A stretch of 34,912 nucleotides of DNA from IMG/VR virus record IMGVR_UViG_3300027759_000238, positions 1 through 34,912 of that record; one strand, 5' to 3'. The translations under genes were made by a program, and so were the position numbers. This DNA is from a virus. Below, in pieces: positions 13,397 through 30,549 of the stretch (within the stretch, counting starts at the first letter, position 1; the number at the start of each line of letters is the position of its first letter). Under the pieces are notes generated by a model. That model saw only the letters and a program-made list of their open reading frames with translations. It ran no database searches and was not told the DNA's origin.

Positions 13397-13432
13397 GACC
13401 TACCTCATTCGTGAGGGGTTAATGGGAACGCG

Positions 13433-13966: not shown

Positions 13967-13980
13967 CTGGCTCACTCCTT

Positions 13981-14907: not shown

Positions 14908-14925
14908 GACCGGCTCCTTTCAGCC

Positions 14926-15357
14926 TTATAGGAAGGCTTTGATGGCCAGCGGATCGCCGGTCACCTTGCCCACTAGGTCGAGATCGTTAAAAATTACGAA
15001 GGTGGCTTCCTCGCCAATCGCTGCCCCTGTCGGAACAGACCAGCGGTCCCCGCCGTACTTCGGCACGCGCACAAAGTCGCCCACTGCTGCCCAGGAGCCT
15101 TCCGGCCACGTCGTCATGGTGTTGCGGTTCTTGAAGGCCAGTGAGCCTACCGCCACCACCTTGGCGACCTGGGTGTTGTACTTCTCGGTCTGGCGCACGT
15201 CATCCGTGAGGATGATGCCGCCCGCCGTCTTGGCCTTAGCCGTCTTCAATTGGACTAGGATGCGTGAACCGAAAGGCGATACGCCCGGCTCACACGGTGG
15301 AAACGCCTCGTCCAAGCTGCCGTAGTCAAAAGTTACATTGTTCGCAAAGTCATCCAT
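14926..15357 (-). CDS. GroES-like co-chaperonin
   Basis: A 143-aa protein. ATG 15357 is chosen over a longer frame because GAGGAAG stands six bases upstream and the extension lacks homology. Residues 28-143 fit the Cpn10 fold: SRILVQLK at about 31-38, a mobile-loop-like KTAGGIILTDDVRQTEKY (43-60) with the GGIIL chaperonin-binding motif, KVVAVGS (66-72), and VGDFVRVPKYGG near 95-106. Bacterial GroES is about 97 aa, so an N-terminal extension of about 27 aa is present. It would cap the host GroEL and help fold the capsid protein, as T4 gp31 does. The location beside scaffold and capsid genes fits. Confidence 0.85.
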   Translation of the reverse strand: MDDFANNVTFDYGSLDEAFPPCEPGVSPFGSRILVQLKTAKAKTAGGIILTDDVRQTEKYNTQVAKVVAVGSLAFKNRNTMTTWPEGSWAAVGDFVRVPKYGGDRWSVPTGAAIGEEATFVIFNDLDLVGKVTGDPLAIKAFL

Positions 15358-15367
15358 ATGTGCTTCC

Positions 15368-15562
15368 TCATAAATCGTAATCCTTGCGGTCTTGGTCGGC
15401 GACGATCCCGATGAGGATGTCCTTCGCCAGCTCCAAGCCCGCGTACACACCCACGCTGCGCCCGTAGTCGAACGCATCGTGGCCTTGGGGTTGTAGAAGC
15501 GCCTCTTTAGCAAACTGAGTTTGCTCTTCCTCCAAACGCCTCAGAACCATGTCTATCCTCAT
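15368..15562 (-). CDS. Small conserved head-operon protein
   Basis: A 64-aa protein, MRIDMVLRRLEEEQTQFAKE and then FDYGRSVGVYAGLELAKDIL. It is alpha-helical and mildly acidic. The ATG overlaps the preceding gene's stop by four bases (ATGA), which indicates coupling. Similar small proteins with a YGR.VGVYAGL motif occur next to portal genes of other environmental phages. Function unknown. Confidence 0.75.
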   Translation of the reverse strand: MRIDMVLRRLEEEQTQFAKEALLQPQGHDAFDYGRSVGVYAGLELAKDILIGIVADQDRKDYDL

Positions 15563-15699
15563 GCAGGCGTCTTCGGTGACGACTTGCCACCTGTTGCGCC
15601 CTTGCCTGCGCCGGTTTCGACGGGTTGGCCCATAGCCAACTTCTTGTGAAGCGGCATGGCGTCGGCGGGGACGGACTTGCTCTTGGTATCGTTAGCCAT
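15559..15699 (-). CDS. 46-aa conserved phage protein
   Basis: A 46-aa ORF starting at ATG 15699, nine bases after the portal stop, with a GGAGTTACC ribosome site. The protein reads MANDTKSKSVPADAMPLHKK and continues LAMGQPVETGAG, ending in a Gly/Lys-rich tail. The (S/I)PADAxPLHKxLAMG pattern recurs in short genes between portal and downstream genes in related phages. It overlaps the next ATG by four bases. Function unknown. Confidence 0.72.
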   Translation of the reverse strand: MANDTKSKSVPADAMPLHKKLAMGQPVETGAGKGATGGKSSPKTPA

Positions 15700-15709
15700 T
15701 GGTAACTCC

Positions 15710-18247
15710 TTATGGATTGGGGTTGGGGTTTAAAACATTCGGGGCGTTAGCCCCGTTGGCGATCTCCATCATCGCTAGTTCCTTTGCCGTTTGGTTGTCG
15801 GCATCGTTCATAGCGATCTTGGCTTGGATTTCGGTGGCTTTGGCCGTGTCGTTAGTGCGCTCGCGCATCTGCTCAAGCTGCATGTCGCTTTGCAATTTGA
15901 CCTGCGCCAGTTGCTGATCGCTTTGCAGTTTGGCCTGCGCCAGTTGCTGATCGCCTTGCATCTTCTGCGCGTCGAGCTGGAGCTTCTGGGTGGCAAGCTG
16001 CGCCTTGGCCTGCTCGACCTGTCCGCGCATCTGGATGTCGGCCAAGGCAGCCTGCGTAGCCGGGTCTGGCGGCGTGGGCGGCTGGATCGACTGGATAGCG
16101 GCGATGGCCTGCTCAATAACCGGCGGCAGAGACGCAAACGCCTCCTGAGCCTTGAGCGCCACGTTCAACGATGCCTCGGCCAGCATCTGGTCAAGCGCCT
16201 GCTTCGTATCCTTGTCCTTGATCTCTTTCAGCGCTTCCTGAAGATCAAATTCCACATTGCTGTCGGCTTCTTTGAACACCTCCTCGGCGTACCAGAAGGC
16301 AACGTGCTCCTTGATGTGGTTCAGCATCAGGGGCAGGTAGGCGGGCGCAATCAGGCGGCTCATGCCCAGCGCCGGAGATACCATGTAGGCCAAGTGCGTC
16401 TTGAGGTGCGCGACGTGGTCCTGCTCGGGAAACGCCACAACAGGACGCCCAAGCGTTGCCTTGACGTTCTCCGACACCGCGTTCTCTTCCGTCGGCGTCA
16501 GCTTCGGTGCCAGCAGGGCCGCCGCGTCTGGTATCTTCAGCGTGTCAAGGATGCGCTCCTCAACCTTGCGCAGGTCGTAGAGTTGCGGGAACATCTGCGA
16601 GCGCTGCGCCACGGCCTGCACCTGGGCAAAGCGTTGCGCTTCACTAAAGATGTTTGGGTCGCTGACCGGCACCACGTCCATCGGGCCTTCAAAGTCGGCT
16701 CGTTTGGCGATCTCCTCGCCAATCTCGGCCTCCTCCATCTCGTCGTCGAGATACATGCCGTTGAGGCGGTGCAGGATGCGCAACATCCGGCCCATGGCGG
16801 CGTGCAGACGAGCGTGGATGGCAGAGAACACCACCATGCCTTGCTCGATCTTGGCTAGGGTCGTGCCGACGGGGACGTTCTGGTTGCTGTCGGACACATC
16901 GTCCATGGTCGTGCGGACAACACCCTTGCCTGCATCCACCAAGAAGCCAAGGAGCTGGTACAGCACGCTCGACGGCGGGTTGAACGGGAGAGGCATGGCG
17001 ATCTTGCGCACGTCATCGACGTTTAGCCCGCCCTCAATCTCCTCAACCTGCGTCGGCTGGATATTGAGCGATTGCCCCCCGCGCGACCCGCCTTTTAACT
17101 TCAGCATGGTCTGCGAATTGGAAATATGCGCGCTGTCCATGAGCGCCCGCAGCGCCCCGGTCGCGGCGGCAGATAGGCCGCCAATCATGTGCGTAATGCC
17201 GATTGGGTACGCGCCGCGCCAAGGCACGAACGGGAACTCGACAATCCATTGCAACTCTTCTTGGGCGTCGTCGTCCTCGTCCCAGTTGCGGTATATGCTC
17301 AACACTTGGGACGACGACTTATCGACCGTGATGATGTAGGGGGCGGCGTCTTCGCCCTCTTCAACTTCAGCAACCGCGTAAATCTCGTAGACGGTACGCA
17401 GGCCGTCCTCGTTGTAGGACGTTTCGTCGCGCCCCTCGATCTTGTTGTTGGCCTGCTCGGCGTCGGAGCCTACTGGCGCTTCGCCCGACGGGATCAGGTC
17501 CACGTCGCGGTACATGCCGCTCTTGACGCGCTGCTCGTAGTCCAGCGTCGTCAGGTATTGGACGTGGGTCTTGCGTTGCGCTGAATAAAAGTTTGTGGCC
17601 GCGTAGGGCAGGTAAATGTCGTCGATGGCAACAAACAGGAAGTCGGGCCGGTTCTTGGCCTCGTTCCACGTCACCTTCATGTACTGCGCGCCGCCCAGCG
17701 GCACCTGGGTCAGAAGCTGCTCCAGCTCCGACCTAAACGATTGCGACTGGACGGTAAGCTGCCAGTTCATAAAGTCGGTAACACGGCGGGCCTTCGCCAC
17801 ACGCTCTCTTGTCAGCTTGCCGACGATGTTGTCCTTGACGGGCCCGTCGGCGGGAAACAGTTCCTTGATGGCTCTGGACGAGAAGTCCACGCAGACTTCC
17901 GTCAGCATGGGGTGCACAACCTTCGACGCGCCTTGGAACTGCGCTCCACCCGGAGCGTCGTCCCCTAGACCTGTGCGGCGGATGCCTTCCTCGTACTGCT
18001 CGTCGCGCTTCTTGCGCGCCTCTTTGTCCCGAGCCAGCAGCTCTATGAACGTCGAGGCGATGTCCTTCAGCTCGGTGTCGCCCATGTCCTCGGCAAGGTT
18101 GGCGTAGAAGTCGCTGTCGCCCTTCTTGGGCTCGTCCTCGTCCTCGTCCAGCGTCACAATAGCGCCGCCGTCCTCGGTGTCCTCGACATCGGCTTCGTCG
18201 CCCGTGTCTAGTTCGACGGTCTCGCCTTCGGGCATTTCATCGTCCAT
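15710..18247 (-). CDS. Portal protein, P22-like
   Basis: An 845-aa protein, in the normal range for P22-type portals. Residues 1-45 are acidic. Residues about 50-550 form the portal core: ARDKEARKKRDEQYEEGIRRTGLG, the SRAIKELFP segment, VVFSAIHARLHAAMGRMLRILHRLNGMYL (clip/stem helices, about 480-508) and PVSDPNIFSEAQRFAQVQAV. From about 735 to 810 there is a glutamine/alanine-rich coiled coil with the repeated unit QLAQ.KLQSDQ, comparable to the P22 portal barrel. It forms the dodecameric vertex through which DNA enters. It lies 13 bases downstream of the large terminase gene; AAAGGGA precedes ATG. Confidence 0.9.
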   Translation of the reverse strand: MDDEMPEGETVELDTGDEADVEDTEDGGAIVTLDEDEDEPKKGDSDFYANLAEDMGDTELKDIASTFIELLARDKEARKKRDEQYEEGIRRTGLGDDAPGGAQFQGASKVVHPMLTEVCVDFSSRAIKELFPADGPVKDNIVGKLTRERVAKARRVTDFMNWQLTVQSQSFRSELEQLLTQVPLGGAQYMKVTWNEAKNRPDFLFVAIDDIYLPYAATNFYSAQRKTHVQYLTTLDYEQRVKSGMYRDVDLIPSGEAPVGSDAEQANNKIEGRDETSYNEDGLRTVYEIYAVAEVEEGEDAAPYIITVDKSSSQVLSIYRNWDEDDDAQEELQWIVEFPFVPWRGAYPIGITHMIGGLSAAATGALRALMDSAHISNSQTMLKLKGGSRGGQSLNIQPTQVEEIEGGLNVDDVRKIAMPLPFNPPSSVLYQLLGFLVDAGKGVVRTTMDDVSDSNQNVPVGTTLAKIEQGMVVFSAIHARLHAAMGRMLRILHRLNGMYLDDEMEEAEIGEEIAKRADFEGPMDVVPVSDPNIFSEAQRFAQVQAVAQRSQMFPQLYDLRKVEERILDTLKIPDAAALLAPKLTPTEENAVSENVKATLGRPVVAFPEQDHVAHLKTHLAYMVSPALGMSRLIAPAYLPLMLNHIKEHVAFWYAEEVFKEADSNVEFDLQEALKEIKDKDTKQALDQMLAEASLNVALKAQEAFASLPPVIEQAIAAIQSIQPPTPPDPATQAALADIQMRGQVEQAKAQLATQKLQLDAQKMQGDQQLAQAKLQSDQQLAQVKLQSDMQLEQMRERTNDTAKATEIQAKIAMNDADNQTAKELAMMEIANGANAPNVLNPNPNP
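15890..15960. repeat. About 33-bp tandem repeat in the portal C-terminus
   Basis: Two near-identical units containing gcctgcgccagttgctgatcg encode the repeated QLAQ.KLQSDQ heptad-like segment of the portal coiled coil; the sequence breaks down on both sides. This looks like an in-frame duplication that lengthens the barrel. Confidence 0.7.
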
Positions 18248-18260
18248 GGCTCACGTCCCT

Positions 18261-19745
18261 TTAGGCGGCATACGGGTTGACCACAGGAGGCTTGTAGTCA
18301 ACCTCCTCCTCATAGCGTTTAGACGGTTTTACTCCCGTCAATAGGTTCTTGTCCATGCAGAGCCGAATTGCCTGCGTGCAACTGTCCACGTAGTCGTCGT
18401 GCTTGATCGACCCGGAGCCCGTAAACGAGCACAATTGCGCCAGCATTGGCTCGACCCAAGTTTTGGGTCGGCCCTTGTAATTCTCGCTCTCCGGCACCCA
18501 GACTTTGTTCTGTGCAAAGATGTGCGACACCATGTGCAGGCGCGTCAGCTTGTCCGCGCGCCCCGGATTGTACGGGTACGAGGTGATGCCCTCACGATCC
18601 AGCATCTGGCGCAGCGAGATGCCGCTTCCCTTGTCCTCAATCAGCAAAATATCCGGTTTCCTACCGCTGACCGCCATTTTCGACGGCCCAATCAGCGGTT
18701 TGATCAGCGCACGGTCCTCGTCGTCGCCGTAAGCGACTTTCATTTCCTTTTTGACCCGCGCCATTAGGTCAGGAAGCCCATATTGCTCGGCCCAGCAGTC
18801 CAAAAGCAAGACCGCCCGCTTATCTTCGTGCCAAAATACGCCCCAGACCGTGCAGGCGGTCTGATCCGCCGTGTGAGAGCGCTTATCGAGCGTCCTTTCC
18901 GTGAACGCCGTGTCCAGCGACATGATAATCCAGTCAAACGCCGGTAAATGCTGCTTCGCGGGCCACAATTGCAGCCACTTGCGCGCGATTATGCCGCCCT
19001 CCTCGCTGTCAATCAGCTCGCCCTCAAGTTCCTGGCGGCCTAATTGCGTGCCCTCGTACTGTTTTAGCTGCTCAAAAAACGACGGAGCTAGGTGGTCCCT
19101 GTTCTCGAACGTCGATCCGGTCGTCAGGACGCGCCCGACCTTGGCCGCAGACAATTTCCGCACGATGTCCTTGGGTTTCGGCGTCGTCGTCCACACAACG
19201 CGCGGCTGCTCGCCCAGACGCAAGCCCATCATGGCCATATCCCATGTCTCTTCGGGCTTGCCCCATGCTGCCAATTCGTCGCACCAGATGTCGGCGTGCT
19301 GTGGACCCCGCAAACGCTCGGGTTCTTCCGACGAGAAGCCGCGTATCGTTGCCTCGTTGCCGTTAAACGTCTGGATCGTCAGCATCGAGTTGGTGACGTT
19401 GTAATTTTTCACCAACGATGGCGGAATAATTGCCAGCAAACCGGCTGGCCCTTCGAAACACACATGCCGTATGTCGTTGAGCGTGGGCGCTATGACCGCA
19501 CGAGGCCGACCGACGGCATCGAAATACGTTTGTAGCGCTAGCCATTGCGCCCCGGTGAGCGTCTTGCCGAAGCCGCGTCCCGCCATCAGGCCCCATTCCG
19601 TCCAGTCGCCGGGTGGTGGCCGTTGCTTATCGCGTGCGGTTGCGTCCCACGACGACAGCCACTTGAGCGCATCTAGGTCAACGGGCGTCATCCGCGCAAC
19701 GTGCTCGGGTTTTATCGCGTCGAGGAAGGCTTTCAGGTCGAACAT
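18261..19745 (-). CDS. terL: Terminase large subunit
   Basis: A 494-aa protein from ATG 19745 (a TTG six bases upstream is a weaker alternative). Residues are numbered from that ATG. The ATPase domain has Walker A AGRGFGKT at about 55-62, Walker B ADIWCDE at about 151-157 and a WTTTPKP coupling motif near 185-191. The nuclease domain has SLDTAF with Asp at about 278, LLIEDKGSG with Glu at about 370 and DDYVDS at about 450-455, the acidic metal-binding set. It cuts concatemeric DNA and pumps it into the procapsid through the portal. The small subunit is not next to it, which is unusual. Confidence 0.95.
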   Translation of the reverse strand: MFDLKAFLDAIKPEHVARMTPVDLDALKWLSSWDATARDKQRPPPGDWTEWGLMAGRGFGKTLTGAQWLALQTYFDAVGRPRAVIAPTLNDIRHVCFEGPAGLLAIIPPSLVKNYNVTNSMLTIQTFNGNEATIRGFSSEEPERLRGPQHADIWCDELAAWGKPEETWDMAMMGLRLGEQPRVVWTTTPKPKDIVRKLSAAKVGRVLTTGSTFENRDHLAPSFFEQLKQYEGTQLGRQELEGELIDSEEGGIIARKWLQLWPAKQHLPAFDWIIMSLDTAFTERTLDKRSHTADQTACTVWGVFWHEDKRAVLLLDCWAEQYGLPDLMARVKKEMKVAYGDDEDRALIKPLIGPSKMAVSGRKPDILLIEDKGSGISLRQMLDREGITSYPYNPGRADKLTRLHMVSHIFAQNKVWVPESENYKGRPKTWVEPMLAQLCSFTGSGSIKHDDYVDSCTQAIRLCMDKNLLTGVKPSKRYEEEVDYKPPVVNPYAA

Positions 19746-19854
19746 ATACAAGTCACCGCGTGTGCTTCCGGCGTCTGAGGTTGTTTACAAGAGTAGGGCG
19801 TGTTGGTGCGTTTGGCAAATGGGGTGATGTGGGCCGGTGTGAGTTGCTGCGGGT

Positions 19855-19872
19855 TGCACCTTAGTGGGTGCA
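19855..19872. promoter_or_regulatory. TGCACC-N6-GGTGCA dyad, copy 1
   Basis: An 18-bp interrupted palindrome with perfect 6-bp arms. The same arms and spacer length recur at 20139-20156, and a related CACC-N6-GGTG element is found at 29763-29775. It looks like a dimer binding site. Confidence 0.5.
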
Positions 19873-19984
19873 GCTTATTGCTGGTTTTCTATAAAAAATT
19901 AGTGAGTGGTCATGCAACAGTTGCAGCCTCGGTCAAATCTTAGGGGGTGGGGGTCGGCATTAGGTTACCTGACTATTAGCCCCT

Positions 19985-20102
19985 CTAACCATTAGGCTAC
20001 CTAACGATTAGGTCGCGTGCCTATCGCATGGGGCTAATGGTTAGGGGCACTAACCATTAGGCTACCTAACGATTAGGTCGCGTGCCTATCGCATGGGGCT
20101 AA
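19985..20102. repeat. 53-bp perfect direct repeat, two copies
   Basis: The 53 bases 19985-20037 recur at 20050-20102 with no mismatch, separated by 12 bases (period 65). Each unit has TTAGG-CTA-CCTAA and another TTAGG, and the 12-base spacer region forms CTAATGGTTAG, an inverse of the repeat start CTAACCATTAG. A degenerate third unit (TTAGG-TTA-CCTGA) lies 32 bases upstream. Iteron-like or operator-like. Confidence 0.85.
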
Positions 20103-20138
20103 GGTGCGGCGCATTGTCGCACCTGGCAATTAGCACTA

Positions 20139-20156
20139 TGCACCTAACAGGGTGCA
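20139..20156. promoter_or_regulatory. TGCACC-N6-GGTGCA dyad, copy 2
   Basis: Perfect 6-bp arms and a 6-base spacer, identical in plan to 19855-19872. It is 49 bases upstream of the start chosen for the first plus-strand gene, where an operator or leader hairpin could control it. Confidence 0.5.
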
Positions 20157-20204
20157 ATGGTATTAATAGCAATGCCGCCAATCAGGGCGACGGGAGCTAA
20201 CGCA

Positions 20205-20378
20205 ATGACCCTTCAAGCTCACTATTCCAGAATGTCTAAGCGCCACTTTGCGAAGCTAGACATTGCAACTTGCACCGACGATGGCCATCGCACTTGGATC
20301 AAAAGCTTTCAAGTTGACGGTTTGGCTATGGCTCGCAAGATTGCCAAGATGCAGGGTGCAACACCCTGGAACTTCTAG
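20205..20378 (+). CDS. Small hypothetical protein, first gene of plus-strand cassette
   Basis: A 57-aa protein. ATG 20205 is preferred to the upstream ATG at 20157 because GGGAG lies eight bases before it and the extension is unrelated in composition. It is basic and aromatic (HYSRMSKRHFAKLDIATC; TWIKSFQVDGLAMARKIAKM) and could bind nucleic acid or form a small alpha/beta fold, but no family was recognised. It is the first gene of a plus-strand cassette and is followed by a GC-rich hairpin that may limit read-through. Confidence 0.62.
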   Translation: MTLQAHYSRMSKRHFAKLDIATCTDDGHRTWIKSFQVDGLAMARKIAKMQGATPWNF

Positions 20379-20401
20379 CTAGTTTCTAGCTAGTTTCTTG
20401 T

Positions 20402-20448
20402 GCGCGCTCGCGTGAACCTTGAACGCTTTTAGCGCGAGCGCGCCTTTT
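20402..20448 (+). terminator. GC-rich hairpin followed by TTTT
   Basis: GCGCGCTCGCG (20402-20412) and CGCGAGCGCGC (20433-20443) are perfect complements of 11 bp around a 20-base loop, followed by CTTTT. Good terminator or attenuator on the plus strand. An 11-bp tandem duplication (ctagctagttt) precedes it at about 20377-20398. Confidence 0.7.
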
Positions 20449-20481
20449 CCTCCCTCCCTCTTAACCCTAGGATTTATTGCC

Positions 20482-20643
20482 ATGCGCCTTCCCGAACGCC
20501 TCATTCTTTGCCTAGCCGGTCTAACCCTTGCGGTTATCGGTTGCACCCTAGGCGCGGCTACGGACGCGCCATTGATCATAATTCCAAGCGCGGCAATCGG
20601 CGCGTCTGGCATTCTCGCCATGATGGCTAGCGTTACCCGCTAA
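20482..20643 (+). CDS. Small membrane protein, 53 aa
   Basis: ATG 20482 is preferred over an earlier ATG at 20419 whose extension crosses the hairpin. AGGA precedes it in the leader TAGGATTTATTGCC, similar to the leader of the next gene. The protein has two hydrophobic segments, about residues 7-24 (LILCLAGLTLAVIGCTLG) and 31-49 (LIIIPSAAIGASGILAMMA), separated by a short ATDA turn, so a hairpin in the inner membrane is likely. It is holin-like in size but lacks supporting lysis context; function unknown. Confidence 0.6.
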   Translation: MRLPERLILCLAGLTLAVIGCTLGAATDAPLIIIPSAAIGASGILAMMASVTR

Positions 20644-20689
20644 CCCTTCCCGCCTCCCCTTTCCCTCGCAACGCATAGGATTTAGTCCA

Positions 20690-20911
20690 ATGGAAACCGC
20701 TTTCGCCTCTATCAACACGCCAGAACAAATCAGCCGCTTCCGCACCTTGTGCCTAGCGCAAGGCTTGGAAATGTACGCCAAGTTCAAGATGGTCCCTACG
20801 CGCGGCGCAACGCCGACGTTCATGCTAGCGGAAGCCGCCAAGCTAACGGGCCGCGCATTCAAGCGCGGCGCATATGTCGAAGCCGCGCAAGCCTTGCGCG
20901 CCTTGCTCTAA
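20690..20911 (+). CDS. Conserved small phage protein
   Basis: A 73-aa protein with leader TAGGATTTAGTCCA. It is helical, ISRFRTLCLAQGLEMYAKFKM, then TRGATPTFMLAEAAKLTGRAFKRGAYVEAAQALRALL. Sequences with this FRTLCLAQGLEMY...TP..ML..A..LTG..FKRG pattern are often seen in small phage early genes. Basic residues and the regular helical pattern suggest an accessory binding protein; function unknown. Confidence 0.7.
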   Translation: METAFASINTPEQISRFRTLCLAQGLEMYAKFKMVPTRGATPTFMLAEAAKLTGRAFKRGAYVEAAQALRALL

Positions 20912-20976
20912 GCACAATGGGCGGGAGCTAAGGCTTCCGCCTAACCCTTCCCTCTCAATCAAAAGGCCTGAAACCC

Positions 20977-21762
20977 ATGATCACGTTTGACCGTCTACTA
21001 TCCGTCGATAGCGCCAAAGCCGCCAAGGCTACTGGCTACGGCTACCTAAACGGTATCCATTACATGGCCCCGCACAATGAGGCGGGAGCGGGTAACCTAT
21101 GCTCGCACGCCTCGCCACAATGCATATTGCATTGCCTAGGCAAATATTCCGGGCAGGCGTCAATGGTTGCCGATTTAGAGCAAGGTACAAATAGCGTTCG
21201 AGAAAGCCGCAAGGCGAAAGCGCGAATGTTTATGAGCGAACGCCAAACCTATTTGCGTCACCTCGAAAAGCAAATCGCGCGCCTAGTCGCCAAAGCCGCG
21301 CGCGAAGGCTTGACGCCTTGCGTTCGCCTTAATGGATCAACGGATATTGCGTTCGAACGTATGCGCTTCGGCGCGTCTCGCCGGACGCTATTAGAGCGGT
21401 TTCCAGACGTGCAATTTGTCGATTATACGAAAGTCCCTAGCCGCCTCAAAAACGTACCCGCGAACCTTAGCCTTACATTTAGCCGCTCTGAAACCAATGA
21501 GACGGATTGCCTAGACGCATTGGCGCAAGGTCATAACGTGGCGGTCATATTCGCGCACGGATTGCCAGTGTCGCGGCTCTGGAACGGCTATCGTGTTATT
21601 GACGGTGACCGCCATGATTTGCGCCACCTCGATCCGAAAGGCGTCGTCGTGGGTTTATCGCCCAAAGGCGCAAAAGCGAAGCGCGATATGAGCGGCTTCG
21701 TATTGCGCGACTATTCCGCTTGCGAAGGCTCGCTCGTTCACGCGCCACGCCTAGCCGCCTAA
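20977..21762 (+). CDS. Gp88-like protein with clustered cysteines
   Basis: A 261-aa protein like the phage gene product 88 (DUF7227-type) family. Marks are NLCSHASPQCILHCLGKYSG (residues 40-59) with cysteines 42, 49 and 53 in a C-x6-C-x3-C arrangement, a helix of ESRKAKARMFMSERQTYLRHL, LTPCVRLNGSTDIAFE (about 111-126), VQFVDYTKVPSRL and LSLTFSRSETN. The three clustered cysteines could hold a metal or Fe-S cluster, as in some TIM-barrel phage proteins (Gp37/Gp68); that is inference. No enzyme activity is known. It is the largest gene of the cassette and uses no CTG codons. Confidence 0.75.
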   Translation: MITFDRLLSVDSAKAAKATGYGYLNGIHYMAPHNEAGAGNLCSHASPQCILHCLGKYSGQASMVADLEQGTNSVRESRKAKARMFMSERQTYLRHLEKQIARLVAKAAREGLTPCVRLNGSTDIAFERMRFGASRRTLLERFPDVQFVDYTKVPSRLKNVPANLSLTFSRSETNETDCLDALAQGHNVAVIFAHGLPVSRLWNGYRVIDGDRHDLRHLDPKGVVVGLSPKGAKAKRDMSGFVLRDYSACEGSLVHAPRLAA

Positions 21763-21790
21763 TCCCCATAACCTTGAAAGGAATAACCCT

Positions 21791-22024
21791 ATGCATCGCC
21801 CTATATCTGATATCGCTCGCGACATTAGCCGCACATGGCCTAAGCCTAATTTTGCGGCTAAGCCGTACCTAGACGCTATGCGCGGCTTGTATAGCGTGCA
21901 TGACGCTTACGGGTACGATAGCGGCAAATCCGTTGTTCTGTACTTCCTTAGCAATGCCGCCACGTTTAAAGGCGAAGCCGCGAAGGCGTTAAAGGCGGAA
22001 TTGAAAGCCGCCTTGAAAGGCTAA
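21791..22024 (+). CDS. Small conserved phage protein
   Basis: A 77-aa protein with GAAAGGA nine bases ahead of ATG. It reads IARDISRTWPKPNFAAKPYL, YSVHDAYGYDSGKSVVLYFL and AATFKGEAAKALKAELKAALKG. The D.YG.D.G..V..FL.NA..FKGE.A...K.ELK pattern is common in short phage and bacterial hypothetical proteins. Helical C-terminus; no known function. It lies in the middle of the cassette, 28 bases after the Gp88-like gene. Confidence 0.72.
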   Translation: MHRPISDIARDISRTWPKPNFAAKPYLDAMRGLYSVHDAYGYDSGKSVVLYFLSNAATFKGEAAKALKAELKAALKG

Positions 22025-22028
22025 TGCC

Positions 22029-22190
22029 GTGCAAACCATATCAGACGCTAAGGCGCGCGCTTGCGCCTATCACCTAGTCGATATCATCCAGACGCGCGCC
22101 TTCGCGCTTATGGATCGAGACAAGCGGCTTAGCTATGCGCGCGCTTGCGATATCGCGATGGATAAAATCGCCAAACAATCGAAAGGATAA
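22029..22190 (+). CDS. Small hypothetical protein with GTG start
   Basis: A 53-aa protein, MQTISDAKARACAYHLVDII then QTRAFALMDRDKRL and a lysine-rich end. GTG 22029 is supported by the leader GAAAGGCTAATGCC, which recurs almost unchanged (GAAAGGATAATGCC) before the next gene, also a GTG start. The protein is a short helical hypothetical with a basic tail. Not recognised. Confidence 0.66.
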   Translation: MQTISDAKARACAYHLVDIIQTRAFALMDRDKRLSYARACDIAMDKIAKQSKG

Positions 22191-22194
22191 TGCC

Positions 22195-22395
22195 GTGCTA
22201 TCCTATTCAGCCGCACAATCCCGCGCCCTTATGTCTGGCGCGACGCAAGCCGCCATTGACCTAGAAGCCGCGCGCCAATCCAAGGCGCGCGGCTCTATCC
22301 CGCAACGGAACATGATAAGGGCGTTACAAATGCACCCTTGGCTAAACGACGCTAGTGACTGGGCTAGGCTAGCAGGGGCGCTAAAACGCGCCTAG
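22195..22395 (+). CDS. Small hypothetical protein with GTG start
   Basis: A 66-aa protein, starting at GTG 22195 (MLSYSAAQSRALMSGATQAA) instead of an ATG 60 bases upstream, because the GAAAGGATAATGCC leader precedes it and the extension runs through the preceding gene. The C-terminal MHPWLNDASDWARLAGALKRA is helical. The final four bases overlap the end of the convergent terminase small subunit gene. Unknown function. Confidence 0.68.
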   Translation: MLSYSAAQSRALMSGATQAAIDLEAARQSKARGSIPQRNMIRALQMHPWLNDASDWARLAGALKRA

Positions 22396-22931
22396 CCGCC
22401 TTCTATGTCGTCCGGCGAGGCCTCTATAACCAAAGGCGCGGCTGTACCTTCTAGCCGCGCCTTTAGCGTTGCCAGAATTTCGCTCATTATGGGAGCGCTT
22501 GACGGCGCGTCACCGTCGCCCTTAGCGTTAGCGTGCCTAACTTGGAAGCCTGGTGCATATCGGCTATTCCAAGACGCTAGAAGTTTCAGGCGCGTCTCTA
22601 TCCGACTTTTCGCCCACCCTAATTGTTCGCCGTCTGGCACGTTAGGGAGCGGTTTCTTGCCGTCCGATATGTCTAGACATTCAATAGCGATTATATCCGC
22701 CCCTAAGTCCCTAGAGAGCTCTATTTCGTCGCCTAGCAGTGGATGAGCCTTCGCCCATTTATACAATACCCGATAGGAGACGTTTAGCGTTCTAGCGATT
22801 TGAGCGAGCGGGATACCGCTTGATAGCTCCTCGCAAACATATTCCGCCACCTCTTCCGTTAATGGCGAGGGAACGGGAGCCTTGCGTTTAGGGACTGATA
22901 GCAATTTCGCCTTAGTCGGTTTCTTCGCCAT
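22392..22931 (-). CDS. terS: Terminase small subunit
   Basis: A 179-aa protein. A basic N-terminus (about 1-20) is followed by a helix-turn-helix of GIPLAQIARTLNVSYRVLYKWAKAHP (about 39-64), as in DNA-recognition domains of small terminases. The helical centre reads ADIIAIECLDISDGKKP, then RIETRLKLLASWNSRYAPGFQV (about 111-132), resembling the R.RLK.LASW.S.YA pattern of the family. It recognises the packaging site and regulates TerL. It starts by a one-base TAATG overlap with the upstream AP2-domain gene. It is separated from the large subunit by about 2.6 kb of genes in the other direction. Confidence 0.85.
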   Translation of the reverse strand: MAKKPTKAKLLSVPKRKAPVPSPLTEEVAEYVCEELSSGIPLAQIARTLNVSYRVLYKWAKAHPLLGDEIELSRDLGADIIAIECLDISDGKKPLPNVPDGEQLGWAKSRIETRLKLLASWNSRYAPGFQVRHANAKGDGDAPSSAPIMSEILATLKARLEGTAAPLVIEASPDDIEGG

Positions 22932-23569
22932 TAGATCAAGTCCCCTGCACCGCTCAAAGTCACTATCGCCCTATCGAGCCATGTTGCGTCGTCATACTCG
23001 TAAAAGTCCACTACCTCTAAGGCGCGGTCTATCAGGCCCACGGATTTAAGGCGCGCAACGGTTGCGCCCAAGCGCGCTTCGTGCCTCGCCTCCCTAACCG
23101 CCTCGCTTTCATCGCTATTAAAAAGCTTAATATCGTCCCCGCAATAGAACGACAAAAGCGAAGCCGTATGCAGGCTAATATTGAACCGCTTGGAAACCCT
23201 CGCCCATATGGCAAGACGCTCATGCTCAAACGGATTTTTGATTGTCACGTCTCCCGGTCTAAGGAGCGAAGCCGGGAAATGAACAGCATCGTCTAGTTCG
23301 AAATCCGGGAACAAGTCCGCCAGCACCTCGACGGGTAGCTGACCAGGTTCCCAGGTGTAGGGCTTAGGAGGCCTAGGAGCGGCCCTAGGAGCCGTTTCTG
23401 GTGCGGCCCTAGCCTTGATACCCCTAGCGGCTTGATAGGCCTTAGACGCCTCTTCTGCTGTATCGAAATAGCCTAAGTGCTTTCGAACGCCGCCCTCACT
23501 GATACGAGCGAACCACCGCCCGCTACGAGTGTGAAAAGCTGCTCCCGGCAACGTCGTTTTTTGCAACAT
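22931..23569 (-). CDS. AP2-domain DNA-binding protein
   Basis: A 212-aa protein from ATG 23569, chosen because GGAGAG is seven bases upstream; a longer reading would run through repeat-derived codons. An AP2/ERF-type domain fits residues about 6-50: TLPGAAFHTRSGRWFARISE, then KHLGYFDTAEEASKAYQAAR. A proline/alanine-rich linker (about 52-75) leads to a C-terminal helical domain (about 80-212) with WEPGQLPVEVLADLFPDFEL and LSFYCGDDIKLFNS. No HNH motif was seen, so it is an orphan relative of AP2-HNH homing endonucleases. It is coupled to the small terminase gene. It may regulate the operon or bind the packaging site; unproven. Confidence 0.75.
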   Translation of the reverse strand: MLQKTTLPGAAFHTRSGRWFARISEGGVRKHLGYFDTAEEASKAYQAARGIKARAAPETAPRAAPRPPKPYTWEPGQLPVEVLADLFPDFELDDAVHFPASLLRPGDVTIKNPFEHERLAIWARVSKRFNISLHTASLLSFYCGDDIKLFNSDESEAVREARHEARLGATVARLKSVGLIDRALEVVDFYEYDDATWLDRAIVTLSGAGDLI

Positions 23570-23902
23570 CAAATTCTCTCCTTCCAAAATGGTGTACAAT
23601 CTGAAACCATAAACCATTACACCATAAACCATCCGGCTGTACACCAGAAACCACACACACCACTGCCACGTCTAAAGACGTTAGGCAGATGGTGGTATGG
23701 TTCTGGTGGTACAACCAAGCCGCATACACCAGTACACCTGCCACCAATAAACCACCCAAAACAGGTTTATTGGTGTACCCGTACACCACCCCGCACCCCT
23801 TGCAATTTCTTACACCCTGCGACAATCTGCCACATAGGCAACCAAAACCCCGCCGCTAAACTCACCCTCGTTGAAACAAACAACCCACGGAGACCTGAAC
23901 CT
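23570..23902. promoter_or_regulatory. Divergent regulatory region with TGGTGTAC repeats
   Basis: This 333-base gap separates the minus-strand AP2/terS pair from the plus-strand early operon and has no convincing gene. Four exact TGGTGTAC/GTACACCA copies occur at 23590-23597, 23639-23646, 23771-23778 and 23781-23788, with one-base variants at 23618-23625, 23724-23731 and 23732-23739. ACCATAAACCAT is repeated at 23606-23617 and 23621-23632. A plus-strand promoter candidate has TTGCAA at 23800-23805 and CAATCT at 23823-23828, 17 bases apart; the -10 is weak. The closing palindrome lies just upstream of its -35. Confidence 0.65.
23771..23788. promoter_or_regulatory. Near-perfect operator-like palindrome
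   Basis: TGGTGTAC and GTACACCA are separated by CC, forming an 18-bp interrupted palindrome, the best example of the repeated element in the region. It sits 11 bases upstream of the candidate -35. Confidence 0.6.
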
Positions 23903-24145
23903 ATGACAACCATAAGCAAGACCGCTGCCCTCAAGATCGCCCGCGCCCAAGTCGGCCAGCTCTACAGCAATGGCCGGGGCCAGTACGGTTTCAACACGTT
24001 CGACGCGGACCGCGACGGCTGGCTGATGGGCTGTTCGCAACCTTACGCCGCTGCCCGCCGGTCACGTGCCGACGCCGTCGCCATCCGCGCCCTGCTGGCG
24101 CAAGGCGTCGAGTATGAGGACGCCTATCGCTCGGTCTACGCCTAA
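23903..24145 (+). CDS. Small hypothetical protein, first gene of early operon
   Basis: An 80-aa protein. ATG 23903 follows GGAGACCTGAACCT, a variant of the leader used by other genes here; the much longer upstream frame lies in the regulatory repeats. It starts MTTISKTAALKIARAQVGQL and has a GYGFNTFDADRDGWLMGC-like centre and an AADAVAIRALLAQGVEYEDAYRSVYA-like helical end. It looks like a small alpha/beta phage protein; not recognised. Promoter-proximal place suggests strong early expression. Confidence 0.68.
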   Translation: MTTISKTAALKIARAQVGQLYSNGRGQYGFNTFDADRDGWLMGCSQPYAAARRSRADAVAIRALLAQGVEYEDAYRSVYA

Positions 24146-24174
24146 CCCACCCACCACGCGGCGATAATTACCGC

Positions 24175-24194
24175 AAAGGAGACCTGACCCAATG
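24175..24194 (+). promoter_or_regulatory. Conserved translation leader, copy 1
   Basis: AAAGGAGACCTGACCCAATG, ending in the start codon at 24192-24194. It recurs at 25452-25471 (one change) and 26866-26885 (one change), and in shorter forms before 23903 and 30017. GGAG is the Shine-Dalgarno, about 11 bases before ATG. Confidence 0.75.
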
Positions 24195-24371
24195 AAACTC
24201 GCACCCATCGCTGACCGCGTCGCCCAAAGCCTCACGGCGCAGCAAAACACAGCACTCGACTGGGAAATCATCCGCGACCATTGCGACATGGCAACCGGCA
24301 GCGACTTGGAATGTTACGCGCTTGATATGCTGACCGACATGGTCGCCGCACGCCTTGGGGTAGCGGCATGA
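24192..24371 (+). CDS. Small hypothetical protein, 59 aa
   Basis: The ORF starts with the conserved leader ATG and ends overlapping the next start by ATGA. The protein begins MKLAPIADRVAQSLTAQQN and continues as helix DWEIIRDHCDMATGSDLECY, ending MVAARLGVAA. Acidic and helical with two cysteines. Not recognised. Confidence 0.68.
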   Translation: MKLAPIADRVAQSLTAQQNTALDWEIIRDHCDMATGSDLECYALDMLTDMVAARLGVAA

Positions 24372-24580
24372 CCGCCTACTTCAACCGCCTCCGCCCTGTA
24401 GGCCTGGGGACTATCCCCAAGGTCGGCTGGCAATGGGTAGAGCAACCCGCCTTGGAGGCTTACCGGCCCCGCAACAGCGACCTGCCGGTCAGCGAGCGCC
24501 GCTACGGCGTTTACAGCACCGAACGTCCCCTAACAGACGAAGAGCTATACGCCTTCGAGATCAGCGAGATCACGCAATGA
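24368..24580 (+). CDS. Small hypothetical protein, 70 aa
   Basis: It overlaps the gene before by four bases (ATGA) and the one after by four. The protein starts MTAYFNRLRPVGLGTIPKVG and has WQWVEQPALEAYRPRNSDLP. The acidic helical C-terminus (PLTDEELYAFEISEITQ) may bind a partner. Similar short proteins occur in other phages' early regions. Function unknown. Confidence 0.65.
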   Translation: MTAYFNRLRPVGLGTIPKVGWQWVEQPALEAYRPRNSDLPVSERRYGVYSTERPLTDEELYAFEISEITQ

Positions 24581-24744
24581 ACATCACCTTCACTGTCACC
24601 AACAACAACCCAGACACGATCTGGAACAAGCTCGCTCAACGCCTAGGCCGTGAGCCAACCAACAGCGAAGCTGAGCAAGAGGTTAAGCGCATCCTTCGCG
24701 GCGATGTTGCGGCAATAAACACCGCAAAGGAAACAGCACAATGA
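24577..24744 (+). CDS. Small hypothetical protein, 55 aa
   Basis: ATG 24577 overlaps the preceding stop (ATGA). Protein MNITFTVTNNNPDTIWNKLA continues as a charged helix RLGREPTNSEAEQEVKRIL. A short beta strand followed by helix. It ends by overlapping the next start codon. Not recognised. Confidence 0.66.
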   Translation: MNITFTVTNNNPDTIWNKLAQRLGREPTNSEAEQEVKRILRGDVAAINTAKETAQ

Positions 24745-24983
24745 CCGACACAACATACAATGGCTGGCGCAACCGCGAAACGTGGCTTGTCAGCCTGTGG
24801 TTCCTCGATTGCAAGAATGAACCTATGACCGCCGACAGCATACGATCAATGGTCGCGGAAGCACTCGACGAAGACTTAACCAATATCGGCGTAATGAAAG
24901 GCTTTATTAACGACATTCTGAGCCTTGATCGCATCGACTGGGAAGAGCTCTCGGCAGCCACACAAGACCAGAGCGCGGCATGA
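24741..24983 (+). CDS. DUF7249-like small protein
   Basis: An 80-aa protein. The N-terminal TTYNGWRNRETWLVSLWFLD is the typical YNGW.N.ETWLV.LW pattern of a widespread small phage/bacterial family (DUF7249-like, from memory). It continues with an acidic helical region (EPMTADSIRSMVAEALDEDL, INDILSLDRIDWEELSAA). It starts and ends by ATGA-type overlaps with its neighbours. The family's function is unknown. Confidence 0.75.
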   Translation: MTDTTYNGWRNRETWLVSLWFLDCKNEPMTADSIRSMVAEALDEDLTNIGVMKGFINDILSLDRIDWEELSAATQDQSAA

Positions 24984-25072
24984 GAGCCTTCCTGCGCGCC
25001 GCCCTAGAGGGCGCTGTGGTCATCGCCTTTATCTGGGCGGTCATCACGGCGCTCGCCGTCTGGCAAGGCTAG
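24980..25072 (+). CDS. Tiny single-span membrane protein, 30 aa
   Basis: ATG overlaps the stop of the upstream gene (ATGA). It is 30 aa: a short amphipathic MRAFLRAALEG start, then a hydrophobic span of about 18 residues, VVIAFIWAVITALAVW, ending QG. The hydrophobic run with a flanking arginine suggests N-in insertion. Such tiny membrane genes are seen in phage early operons and sometimes modulate the host membrane or lysis; function unknown. Confidence 0.55.
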   Translation: MRAFLRAALEGAVVIAFIWAVITALAVWQG

Positions 25073-25078
25073 GCCCCG

Positions 25079-25135
25079 ATGCTGTTCGAGGCCCTGCTGC
25101 TTGCCCTAATCGTCGCACTAATTGGAAAGGACTGA
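25079..25135 (+). CDS. Possible tiny membrane peptide, 18 aa
   Basis: ATG 25079, six bases after the stop of the 30-aa gene. It encodes MLFEALLLALIVALIGKD, almost wholly hydrophobic with a charged end. Its end overlaps the ribosome site of the next gene (GGAAAGGACTGA). No clear Shine-Dalgarno is seen before it. It could be chance, or a small membrane peptide read by coupling. Confidence 0.3.
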   Translation: MLFEALLLALIVALIGKD

Positions 25136-25140
25136 CCCCT

Positions 25141-25275
25141 ATGAGCCGTTTTGGTAAAATTATCATGCCCGGTAGTTACGACACCGAAGGCGACTTCTAT
25201 GACGCCTTGTACGAAGAGGAAGAAGCCGCCCGCGCCGCTGAACAGGCGGCAGAAGACGAGAGCGAGGACGAGTGA
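25141..25275 (+). CDS. Small acidic protein, 44 aa
   Basis: ATG 25141 is chosen because GGAAAGGACTGACCCCT precedes it, an altered version of the shared leader; a longer frame upstream would run through the membrane peptides. MSRFGKIIMPGSYDTEGDFY leads to an extremely acidic C-terminus (EEEEAA, EDESEDE). DNA mimicry is possible but there is no proof. It overlaps the next GTG start. Confidence 0.62.
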   Translation: MSRFGKIIMPGSYDTEGDFYDALYEEEEAARAAEQAAEDESEDE

Positions 25276-25484
25276 ACCTCCGCCACACCACCCTAGGCCC
25301 CCGCGCCTGTAACGCCCTCGCTGACTATCTGGGCGTCCACACAGTCGCGGAGCTACGCGAGGCCCTAGCGAGCTACAGCAACCCGCTCTGGGAGCTCATG
25401 CGACTACCCAACGTCGGCGCGAAAACAGCGACCGACATTATGACCCTGTTGAAAGGAGACTTGACCCAATGCGTAACGACCTAA
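25272..25484 (+). CDS. Small helix-hairpin-helix protein, RNAP alpha-CTD-like
   Basis: A 70-aa protein from GTG 25272, coupled to the gene before (GTGA). LGPRACNALADYLGVHTVAELREAL (about 8-32) and LMRLPNVGAKTATDIMTLLKG (about 42-62) match the plan of bacterial RNA polymerase alpha C-terminal domains: L..RA.N.L...G..TV.EL, then the P.G.K....I HhH. Its end overlaps the leader and start of the next gene by 16 bases. The fold call is moderate. A role in DNA binding or in host RNA polymerase interaction is inference. Confidence 0.7.
   Translation: MNLRHTTLGPRACNALADYLGVHTVAELREALASYSNPLWELMRLPNVGAKTATDIMTLLKGDLTQCVTT
25452..25471 (+). promoter_or_regulatory. Conserved translation leader, copy 2
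   Basis: AAAGGAGACTTGACCCAATG, one base from copy 1. It lies inside the 3' end of the helix-hairpin-helix gene and its ATG at 25469 starts the next gene. Confidence 0.75.
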
Positions 25485-25948
25485 GAACCTGGGCGAAGAC
25501 AGCCCTCGACAAGAACCGCGACCAACCCGACCTAGCGGCAGCGTGGCTTGCTACACAAGGCGACAAAGACCTGCGCCACCAACTGTTGCGCCTTGGCGCG
25601 CAGCAGGTCGTGCGCTCGTTCTTCACCGCGCAGCGTGCTTCAGCGATGAGCATGGCGACAGGGCGCGTCATGGCGACACTGGGCGCACCAGACGTTGCCG
25701 ACCGCGTGGCCGCTAGGGTGGCCCGTCAAGCCTTCTGGGACGCCTACACGCTGTTCGGCATGACACCGATACGCGAAGCCACCAAAGAGCAACTGGAGGC
25801 CAGCGCAGCGGCACGCGAAACCCAAGCAAAGGGCGAACTACGCCTCGCCAAGTTCGAGCGCGCCGTGGCCCGTCGCTTGGTCGGCGCTCAACGCGTCTGT
25901 GATGCTCTCACCTCTGAGGCCGTCGAAGCTATGGCGAGGGCGGCATGA
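25469..25948 (+). CDS. Hypothetical helical protein, 159 aa
   Basis: The protein is alanine- and arginine-rich and almost all helical. Marks are MRNDLRTWAKTALDKNRDQP, ATGRVMATLGAPDVADRVAA and FWDAYTLFGMTPIREATKEQ (about 90-109). It follows the shared leader and overlaps the next gene by four bases (ATGA). No signal or membrane segment was found. It may be a DNA-associated protein, but I did not recognise the family. Confidence 0.68.
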   Translation: MRNDLRTWAKTALDKNRDQPDLAAAWLATQGDKDLRHQLLRLGAQQVVRSFFTAQRASAMSMATGRVMATLGAPDVADRVAARVARQAFWDAYTLFGMTPIREATKEQLEASAAARETQAKGELRLAKFERAVARRLVGAQRVCDALTSEAVEAMARAA

Positions 25949-26259
25949 CTAGGACGTTCGAGCGCAGCACCGCCGGACTGCGCGATGCCCTCATGAGCGA
26001 GATGGAGGACATCCGCGCCGGGATCGCCACGCCCGCAGAGGCCACCGCCTTCGCGTTGCTGGCGAAGACTATCGTCGCCAGCATGGAGGCCGAGATCACC
26101 GAGAGCTTGCGCCTCGACGCCAAGGAGGATCGCGACCGGCGGTTCCGTGAGCGCGAGCAAAACCGCCTCATAGCCGAACGGGAGGTACTGGCGCTGGAGT
26201 ACAAGCAGCAGAGCGAGGAAGCCGAGGAGGACGATGACGGTGACGTACACCAGCTTTGA
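25945..26259 (+). CDS. Hypothetical coiled-coil protein, 104 aa
   Basis: It starts at an ATGA overlap. The sequence has a helix with STAGLRDALMSEMEDI, then a strongly charged coiled-coil region (LRLDAKEDRDRRFREREQNR; LAEREVLALEYKQQSEEAEE by approximate reading) and a poly-acidic end. Likely a dimeric helical protein. The start of the next gene lies 26 bases before its end. Unknown function. Confidence 0.66.
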   Translation: MTRTFERSTAGLRDALMSEMEDIRAGIATPAEATAFALLAKTIVASMEAEITESLRLDAKEDRDRRFREREQNRLIAEREVLALEYKQQSEEAEEDDDGDVHQL

Positions 26260-26857
26260 GCAAGACGGCGAGTGGTGGTACGAGGGCGACTATTGCCGCC
26301 TGATCCACGCAGGCGGGAACAACCTCAAATACACGCACCACCCCATCGCGGCGGCGCAGGACATGAACGAAGACCCGTCGTTCCGTCACCTGTCGTTCGA
26401 GCAACTGTTTAACGCGGTCGTCAAATACGGACCGACCCGCAGCACTTCTTGGCGCAGGTATAACTACATGGAGGAGATTGCCGTGCCTATGCCGGAAACT
26501 AAGCGGGCGGTTGCCACGCACCTCGGCGTTAAGTGCCTCTGTTGCGAGAACATAGCGTGGGAGCCACCCCCGCCGGATAGTTCAGGCTGGGGGCTGAGGT
26601 GCAAAGACCTAAACGCCTTTGATGAGACCATCAGCGCGCAGATAGAATATGTTTGCGCGCTGCTTCCGCCCTTTCAAGTCGGCTTATGCACGACATACCC
26701 CGTCCTCTGCTCCGACTGCGTAGCCTTGGCGCGCACCGCCAAGCCGCACCCAGGACGATCCTGGCGGTACGAGAGGACAAACGCCCTGCGCGGCGTCCTC
26801 GCTGTCTTCGAACAGAAAGCAGTTTACAAACGCCAGCCGCACCCGGTAGGGTGCTAA
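26234..26857 (+). CDS. Hypothetical protein with cysteine pairs
   Basis: A 207-aa protein. ATG 26234 overlaps the preceding gene by 26 bases. The aromatic N-terminus YTSFEQDGEWWYEGDYCRLI leads to KCLCCENIAWEPPPPDSSGW (about 99-118, a cysteine pair) and CTTYPVLCSDCVALART (about 154-170, a second pair). Four cysteines could bind zinc. The C-terminus is basic. Not recognised; a zinc-stabilised phage protein is the simplest reading. Confidence 0.62.
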   Translation: MTVTYTSFEQDGEWWYEGDYCRLIHAGGNNLKYTHHPIAAAQDMNEDPSFRHLSFEQLFNAVVKYGPTRSTSWRRYNYMEEIAVPMPETKRAVATHLGVKCLCCENIAWEPPPPDSSGWGLRCKDLNAFDETISAQIEYVCALLPPFQVGLCTTYPVLCSDCVALARTAKPHPGRSWRYERTNALRGVLAVFEQKAVYKRQPHPVGC

Positions 26858-26865
26858 CCACACAA

Positions 26866-26885
26866 CAAGGAGACCTGACCCAATG
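26866..26885 (+). promoter_or_regulatory. Conserved translation leader, copy 3
   Basis: CAAGGAGACCTGACCCAATG, one base from copy 1, with the start codon at 26883-26885 and an adenine-rich lead-in. Confidence 0.75.
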
Positions 26886-27065
26886 ACCGACCTGACCTAC
26901 CCCGTCGACACCCGCCTGGAACTAGTCCAGGCCATCCAGGCGATAGCCATGAGCCTGTATGAGCAAGCCCCAGAGACCCTAGGGCTGGCCGAGATCATCG
27001 CGTCTAGCCAAGAGGTCTACGACCTCGCGGAGGCGCTCCTGAGCCATCTGGAGGAACGCAAGTGA
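26883..27065 (+). CDS. Small acidic helical protein, 60 aa
   Basis: It starts with the shared leader. MTDLTYPVDTRLELVQAIQA continues with helical and acidic repeats EQAPETLGLAEIIASSQEVY and DLAEALLSHLEER. Acidic, two-helix composition. It overlaps the next GTG by four bases. Not recognised. Confidence 0.65.
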   Translation: MTDLTYPVDTRLELVQAIQAIAMSLYEQAPETLGLAEIIASSQEVYDLAEALLSHLEERK

Positions 27066-27211
27066 GCCGCAACTACCTTAACAGCGAAGCGTTTAGGAAT
27101 TACGCCAGCGGCGGCTACCCCGCCAACACCCACCCCGACCGCGACTGGTCGCCACCCGATCCCGCCGACGCCGAGGACACTGAGGACGATAGCGAGGAGG
27201 CAGAGGCGTGA
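27062..27211 (+). CDS. Small acidic disordered protein, 49 aa
   Basis: GTG 27062 overlaps the preceding stop (GTGA). It reads MSRNYLNSEAFRNYASGGYP, then a proline-rich centre and an acidic tail (EDTEDDSEEAEA). Probably disordered. It overlaps the next start by four bases. Function unknown. Confidence 0.58.
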   Translation: MSRNYLNSEAFRNYASGGYPANTHPDRDWSPPDPADAEDTEDDSEEAEA

Positions 27212-27417
27212 AGCCTCTGCTCCTGGCCCTCGCCTTAACCGCCCTGCTGCTGCTGGGGAGCTATTTCATTCTTGTCGCGGTCAGCTACGCCAACGCCGCA
27301 ACACGGCCCCGTGCCGCGACCTTCACGCCCTTTCTAGCACCCATCAAGCCACTGCCCTGCGTCGCCTGTGTGTCGCTCATGGCACCCCCCGGCCAAGCCC
27401 TTGACGGCACCCAATAA
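27208..27417 (+). CDS. Small membrane or exported protein, 69 aa
   Basis: GTG 27208 overlaps the upstream stop (GTGA). It begins with one lysine and a long hydrophobic run, LLLALALTALLLLGSYFILVAV (residues 4-25), then SYANAATRPRA. The ANA-type sequence could be a signal peptidase site, or the run is an anchor. The C-terminal part is proline-rich with a CVAC motif (about 51-54) and a hydrophobic patch. It could be a membrane or periplasmic protein, for example for lysis or exclusion; unproven. Confidence 0.58.
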   Translation: MKPLLLALALTALLLLGSYFILVAVSYANAATRPRAATFTPFLAPIKPLPCVACVSLMAPPGQALDGTQ

Positions 27418-27445
27418 GGTGCCTACCGTGCCGACTAGGAGCACC
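27418..27445 (+). promoter_or_regulatory. Leader hairpin over the Shine-Dalgarno of the repressor-like gene
   Basis: GGTGCCTA (27418-27425) pairs with TAGG..CACC (27436-27445; AG bulged), a ten-base loop between. AGGAG at 27437-27441, the ribosome site of the Cro-like gene (ATG 27448), is inside the stem. It would reduce access to the ribosome unless opened. Confidence 0.4.
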
Positions 27446-27447
27446 CT

Positions 27448-27669
27448 ATGACAGACCTGAACCTTCTTGACCAAGCGGTTACCGCCGCTGGCAGCATCAG
27501 TGCCTTGGCCCGCAAGCTGGGCATCAAGCCGCAAGTTTGTAACCGCTGGGTCAAGCGAGGTTGGGTGCCACCGCAGCAGGCGCTCAAGCTCGAACTGTTT
27601 TACGGCATCCCCGCCAAGGACTTGGTCAAGCCCTCGCTGCGCGAGATGGCCGACCTACTCGCATCCTGA
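27448..27669 (+). CDS. Cro/YdaS-like HTH transcription regulator
   Basis: A 73-aa protein with LLDQAVTAAGSISALARKLG, then IKPQVCNRWVKRGWVPPQQA (about 6-46), the pattern of Cro/YdaS-type repressor domains (L.kAi.aaGs..aLA..Lgi....v..Wv.RG.VP). The helix-turn-helix spans about residues 17-38. The Shine-Dalgarno AGGAG is in a leader hairpin. It probably controls early phage promoters; candidate sites are the CACC-N6-GGTG dyads or the TGGTGTAC elements. It stops three bases before the PrimPol-helicase start. Confidence 0.8.
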   Translation: MTDLNLLDQAVTAAGSISALARKLGIKPQVCNRWVKRGWVPPQQALKLELFYGIPAKDLVKPSLREMADLLAS

Positions 27670-27672
27670 TCC

Positions 27673-29739: not shown

Positions 29740-29761
29740 TAATTTTCTGCATTGACCATGC

Positions 29762-29775
29762 CACCCAAATGGGTG
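29762..29775. promoter_or_regulatory. CACCCA-AA-TGGGTG palindrome
   Basis: Perfect 6-bp arms with a two-base spacer in the 74-base gap after the helicase gene. Read as CACC-N6-GGTG it is like the two dyads at 19855 and 20139 (TGCACC-N6-GGTGCA). It may be an operator; no promoter pair was clear next to it. Confidence 0.4.
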
Positions 29776-29813
29776 CAGGGTTCTAAAACCAACCAACCCA
29801 AGGAGAAACGTCG

Positions 29814-30014: not shown

Positions 30015-30016
30015 GA

Positions 30017-30547: not shown

Positions 30548-30549
30548 CC

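Follow-up and report, generated by a model that had tools for sequence, protein, structure and literature searches.

Why should a few kilobases of a phage genome, located between the two terminase genes, be nearly free of a leucine codon that is used heavily on both sides? The window, i.e. the whole IMG/VR virus record IMGVR_UViG_3300027759_000238 with its 34,912 bases, has minus-strand late genes at about 1.3–19.7 kb and a plus-strand early/replication operon from about 23.9 kb, and the region in question is found between them. The gene of the terminase large subunit, terL (18261–19751, minus strand; Pfam Terminase_6N/6C), is 2641 bp away from terS, with about seven plus-strand ORFs in the spacer, which agrees with the initial annotation, where some 2.6 kb and seven genes had been reported. 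In the gap that separates terL from the first of these ORFs, a repeat search detected two direct repeats of 62 nt that have inverted-repeat arms (19976–20102) and no further match within the record; a promoter, an operator or a packaging site is possible. The plus-strand ORFs are the small p1 (20157–20378; ORF call and weak profile match to phrog_20574), p2 (20482–20643; homolog comparison) and p3 (20690–20911; ORF call and comparison), the gene of a GP88 family protein (20977–21762; phrog_1617 and PF17338, the latter with 120.9 bits against a curated cut-off of 24.4, besides codons and a structure model), p5 (21791–22024; profile and homolog search), a putative early protein of 77 aa that belongs to the conserved family phrog_13953 of about 75 aa, and the small p6 (22029–22190; ORF call and comparison) and p7 (22195–22395; GTG start; ORF call and codons). 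On the minus strand there follow terS (22392–22931), by profile and comparison an Sf6-like terminase small subunit (PF20901, 46.9 bits, curated cut-off 27), and, adjoining it, the gene of an AP2-domain protein with an HNH-endonuclease-like DNA-binding part (22931–23569; profiles).

CTG accounts for only 1 of the 65 leucine codons in the seven plus-strand ORFs (0 of 27 in the GP88 gene), while the flanks use it for 228 of 540 (Fisher p = 2e-13), and terS together with the AP2 gene has 6 of 42 (p = 2.5e-4 against the same flanks), so that the near-absence in the cassette, the low use in its two minus-strand neighbors and the heavy use in the flanking genes have all been confirmed as initially described. 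In terL, CTG use is normal (18 of 49). Glutamine CAG is likewise rare, with 4 of 27 codons in the block versus 161 of 270 in the flanks (p = 8e-6). The combined density of CTG and CAG is 13/kb in the block and 38–40/kb in the flanks, while CTA plus TAG rises from 17–20/kb to 49/kb and CTAG from 2–2.5/kb to 8.8/kb. A change-point scan of the whole record found one poor segment, 19451–23279, which contains terS and is also rich in AT, TA, CG and GC steps; its log-likelihood ratio (LLR) of 53.7 compares with a maximum LLR of 12.4 in 30 block permutations of the record. Of 769 further 2-kb windows with comparable GC content, a single one, from the contig L146, matches the lowest CTG/CAG value of the block.

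In most relatives that were found in IMG/VR by terL homology, terS directly precedes terL, and an opposite-strand cassette between the two has been detected in the window and in L006, L018, L022, L012 and L013, with genes that vary among these six (SprT-like, GP88 or GP88-like protein, p5). The order AP2-terS-cassette-terL is common to the window and L006. The observed/expected (O/E) ratio of CTG/CAG in the terS-terL gap is 0.42 in the window, 0.59 in L022, 0.61 in L006 and 0.78 in L018, and in L012 (1.08) and L013 (1.03) a cassette is present at the same place without any trough. A search with the p5 protein alone yielded 51 contigs, and in many of them a trough of 2–4 kb is found at p5, as for example in L138 (7 seen, 29 expected) or L146 (14 seen, 44 expected). 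As pooled word tables built on troughs that were selected by low CTG/CAG are circular for these words, the unbiased test is given by loci picked by homology: at the 31 dereplicated p5 loci, chosen by phrog_13953 homology only, CTG/CAG is near its lowest at p5 in 16 (KS p = 1.3e-7), and at 15 dereplicated GP88 loci it is near its lowest at GP88 in 7 (p = 1.2e-4). CAG ranks last or next to last among the words in each set, but ACG in the p5 set and GTA in the GP88 set are low as well, and CTG/CAG is therefore not the sole odd word. In L138, L146, L168, L171, L142 and L157 the trough has a sharp onset at the terminase side of the divergent early operon and fades over 3–5 kb, with O/E ratios of 0.54, 0.39, 0.41, 0.65, 0.70 and 0.86 in successive 750-bp steps. 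The GC content of the troughs ranges from 0.38 to 0.70 across phages, and many trough loci are members of one related clade. A property intrinsic to the genes has been ruled out, since the same genes are trough-free in L153, L156, L143, L012, L013, actinophages and bacterial contigs; L002, for instance, has a p2 homolog of 81% identity and no trough there. CTG/CAG troughs also exist away from the p5 gene in two AT-rich contigs (L183, 1001–4250; L177, 1–2750). A literature search for local trinucleotide avoidance of this kind found nothing.

The initial annotation had framed the scarcity as a matter of codon use. The scarcity is real, but it is not of codon nature, as a strand-symmetric DNA word is avoided instead. 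When synonymous codons are shuffled with protein and codon usage fixed, 53 CTG/CAG are expected across codon boundaries in the window block and 30 are seen, whereas CTA/TAG is at 113 with 68 expected; pooled over 12 trough loci, 142 boundary CTG/CAG compare with 326 expected, and in the flanks 2338 with 2156. In the troughs, the depletion is the same for sense CTG (103/215) as for sense CAG (110/214), which rules out a transcription-linked strand bias. Noncoding DNA has an O/E ratio of 0.43 in troughs and 1.07 in flanks (94/201 in a wider noncoding cut). The depletion is alike whatever base precedes or follows (relative ratio 0.24–0.39), and the avoided unit is thus a trinucleotide of 3 bp; a longer restriction motif has been ruled out by the same lack of influence of flanking bases. 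Selected folding of mRNA or single-stranded DNA was also rejected, as the structure excess over synonymous shuffles is no greater in troughs than in flanks.

What could make phages avoid a 3-bp word in one stretch only? Our preferred reading, held tentatively, is that an immediate-early cassette is concerned, which the window obtained along with its terS and AP2 genes, and in which CAG/CTG is selected against as DNA because this part is exposed first to host defence. The block cassette with GP88, the phrog_13953 protein and the small ORFs is probably immediate-early. In the window, these genes would have been acquired or replaced jointly with the terS and AP2 genes, and their stretch would be the first phage DNA that is exposed in the host. 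A DNA-directed host defence, either restriction-like or a CRISPR system with CAG/CTG as PAM, would read the word until the cassette products turned this defence off, and DNA exposed later would escape the pressure. That a host agent reads CAG/CTG is a guess; we know of no 3-bp restriction specificity that would fit, and a comparison of the cassette proteins with PADLOC models gave no match. Selection upon first exposure would account for the locality, the gradient, the strand symmetry, the reach into noncoding DNA, the mixed replacements (see below) and the presence in one sister phage but not in another.

That the segment is expressed early in the window phage, and enters early, is inferred from cultured phages: HMO-2011, HTVC309P, HTVC120P and CRP-6 carry the cassette genes at the beginning or at the end of their genomes. 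A second signature, separable from the CTG/CAG avoidance, is an excess of self-complementary steps: the dinucleotide rho in troughs versus outside is 1.33/0.99 for AT, 1.13/0.77 for TA, 1.59/1.20 for GC and 1.27/0.93 for CG, and at codon boundaries 2627 such steps are seen in troughs with 1994 expected, as compared to 10076 with 10166 expected in flanks. In L153 and L156 the excess is present, but the avoidance is not. In T5 (AY543070), the annotated first-step-transfer segment (1–10219) has self-complementary-step values of 1.09–1.21 versus about 0.88–0.99 beyond, the excess ends sharply at the annotated boundary, and with codon usage fixed there are 739 codon-boundary steps versus 601 (z 7.2). 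The segment has no EcoRI site. In T7, CTG/CAG is at its minimum in the first 2 kb and self-complementary steps are highest at 1–4 kb. HTVC309P also has its CTG/CAG minimum in the first 2 kb, in CRP-6 both signatures are extreme at the end that carries GP88, and N4 and SPO1 have one signature apiece; as the cultured genomes were picked by hand, these positions are a lead and not a test. A generalization, according to which first-exposed phage DNA bears a mark of its own (the excess of AT, TA, CG and GC and, in some lineages, CTG/CAG avoidance) because host surveillance checks the incoming DNA for a 3-bp word, would be rather unlikely at present. If the sharp dinucleotide boundary of T5 generalizes, the order of DNA entry would be readable from sequence.

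Similar segment-specific avoidance is known. In a relative of T5, EcoRI sites are missing from the pre-early region (PMC13250531), and as in this first-entry avoidance of the T5/T7 type, the word is depleted in one segment of the window only. In the T5-like phages, however, it is the early segment that lacks a 6-bp palindrome recognized by a known enzyme (EcoRI), whereas the word in the window has 3 bp, is non-palindromic and is reduced to a third or less, and the entry order is an inferred one. T7 produces Ocr ahead of the entry of its remaining DNA (PMC3874165); its early operon also lies at the terminase-side end, and its first 2 kb are lowest for CTG/CAG, but the effect is small (0.72, the mean being 0.95), and the pressure that is known for T7 concerns the 7-bp EcoKI site. 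In phages of CRISPR hosts, PAMs are depleted in whole genomes (Kupczok and Bollback 2014, PMC4246573), which is alike in that a short word of 2–3 bp is concerned strand-symmetrically and selection is held responsible, but differs from the single local segment found here. The right-arm small-gene cassettes of Cluster A mycobacteriophages and Gordonia phages share p5, SprT-like and GP88 or GP88-like genes with the cassettes described here, but have no CTG/CAG trough. Phage word avoidance is usually measured genome-wide, and a strong local avoidance at an early cassette would differ from this; it would reveal, from sequence alone, what part of the DNA the host meets ahead of counter-defence and at which word its attack is aimed. 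Several points speak against a first-exposure reading: the first-entering DNA of T5 has no CTG/CAG scarcity, phiKMV and lambda have neither signature, the cassettes of L012 and L013 are trough-free, ACG and GTA are also low, and many trough loci belong to one clade.

The initial annotation had suggested that the block may have come from another phage. In its present form, this would mean that cassette, terS and AP2 gene were swapped in from a CTG-poor, palindrome-tolerant phage whose signature the odd words represent, which is a serious but on balance unlikely explanation. The block differs from its flanks in composition, and its gene relationships conflict with those of its neighbors: the window terS is only 31–35% identical to terS of L006, L018 and L022, which are 69–81% identical to each other, whereas the terL proteins are 75–78% identical to that of the window. 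The poor segment of the window includes terS and the AP2 gene, neither of which is poor in L006 or L018, and 6-bp palindromes have an O/E ratio of 0.73 in the block as compared to 0.34 to its left and 0.27 to its right. Because of the conflicting identities and the palindrome tolerance, the AP2-terS-cassette segment has probably been exchanged as a unit in the window, and to this extent the suggested transfer holds. A single donor, however, fails to explain troughs in many other phages with GC contents from 0.38 to 0.70, which moreover form a gradient instead of two edges. No donor with a genome-wide signature of this kind was found, and outside the cassette all contigs that were inspected are normal. 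No contiguous block was found elsewhere; the cassette genes recur singly in other settings. The block had no DNA-level match among 50,697 phage records, and a terS search in IMG/VR confirmed no relatives. The recurring local troughs and the mixed replacements of CAG thus make a single foreign import insufficient.

A local mutation bias, by which C is converted to T in CAG within the stretch, for example by deamination of methylated CWG, is improbable. It could explain why in the window the sum of CAG and TAG stays at about 56–62/kb while the split moves toward TAG. When trough loci were aligned with trough-free homologs (L153, L156, L105, L085, L002, L012, L013, L143 and the weaker L141), 278 CAG/CTG losses and 57 gains were counted in pairs that are not independent, and CAG was substituted by CAA (54), CGG (51), CAT (27), AAG (16), CCG (15), GAG (13) and TAG (12). 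TAG thus makes up merely 12 of 278, and such mixed replacements across relatives favor avoidance over a single C-to-T process. Sister phages carry the same genes without a trough, and it is hard to see what would limit the effect of a methylase spatially.

Still less probable is an avoidance of priming sites that would keep the stretch free of start sites for the host primase. The DnaG primase of E. coli starts at CTG, and a strand-symmetric unit of exactly 3 bp would suit it, but there is no reason for a coding stretch of 3 kb to shun priming, and the phage has its own primase-like protein (27673–29739). A different translational rule, for which the 1 CTG among the 65 leucine codons of the seven ORFs would speak, had been suggested as a possibility. 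Under such a rule, CTG would be shunned on account of a lacking, attacked or reassigned tRNA. This is refuted, as the effect is not restricted to sense-strand codons read in frame, but concerns CAG equally and extends to other reading phases, both strands and noncoding DNA.

The fold matches of the GP88 model (pLDDT 83) are for the most part radical SAM enzymes, which are also the best ones (TYW1 with Z 5.9, NifB with 5.8, viperin with 5.7), with all Z values below 6 and thus under the trust level. The family has three invariant cysteines with the spacing CX6CX3C, which is not the CX3CX2C cluster motif of radical SAM enzymes. GP88 may, judging from the model, be a radical-SAM-like barrel enzyme with a role in phage takeover. 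For p5, a fold search gave no match beyond the chance range and no solved relative was found, and a PDB sequence search with p5 and GP88 gave nothing useful. The p5 family, seen in the window and in L223, L226, L227, L229 and L230, is highly conserved from the phages described here to mycobacteriophages and occurs also in bacterial contigs, e.g. of Chryseobacterium.

Some further observations concern the remainder of the record. Just outside the poor segment, at 23903–24145, there is a homolog of genes that in L018 and L022 lie inside the cassettes, and its CTG/CAG content is normal (10 versus 7.9 expected). Throughout 1–19700 and 23700–34912, i.e. with the exception of the block, palindromic hexamers reach only about 0.3 of the expected number, and this scarcity strongly points to pressure from Type II restriction on the phage. 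A tail-region protein of 1029 aa (4201–7290) contains long collagen-like GPTGPTG repeats.
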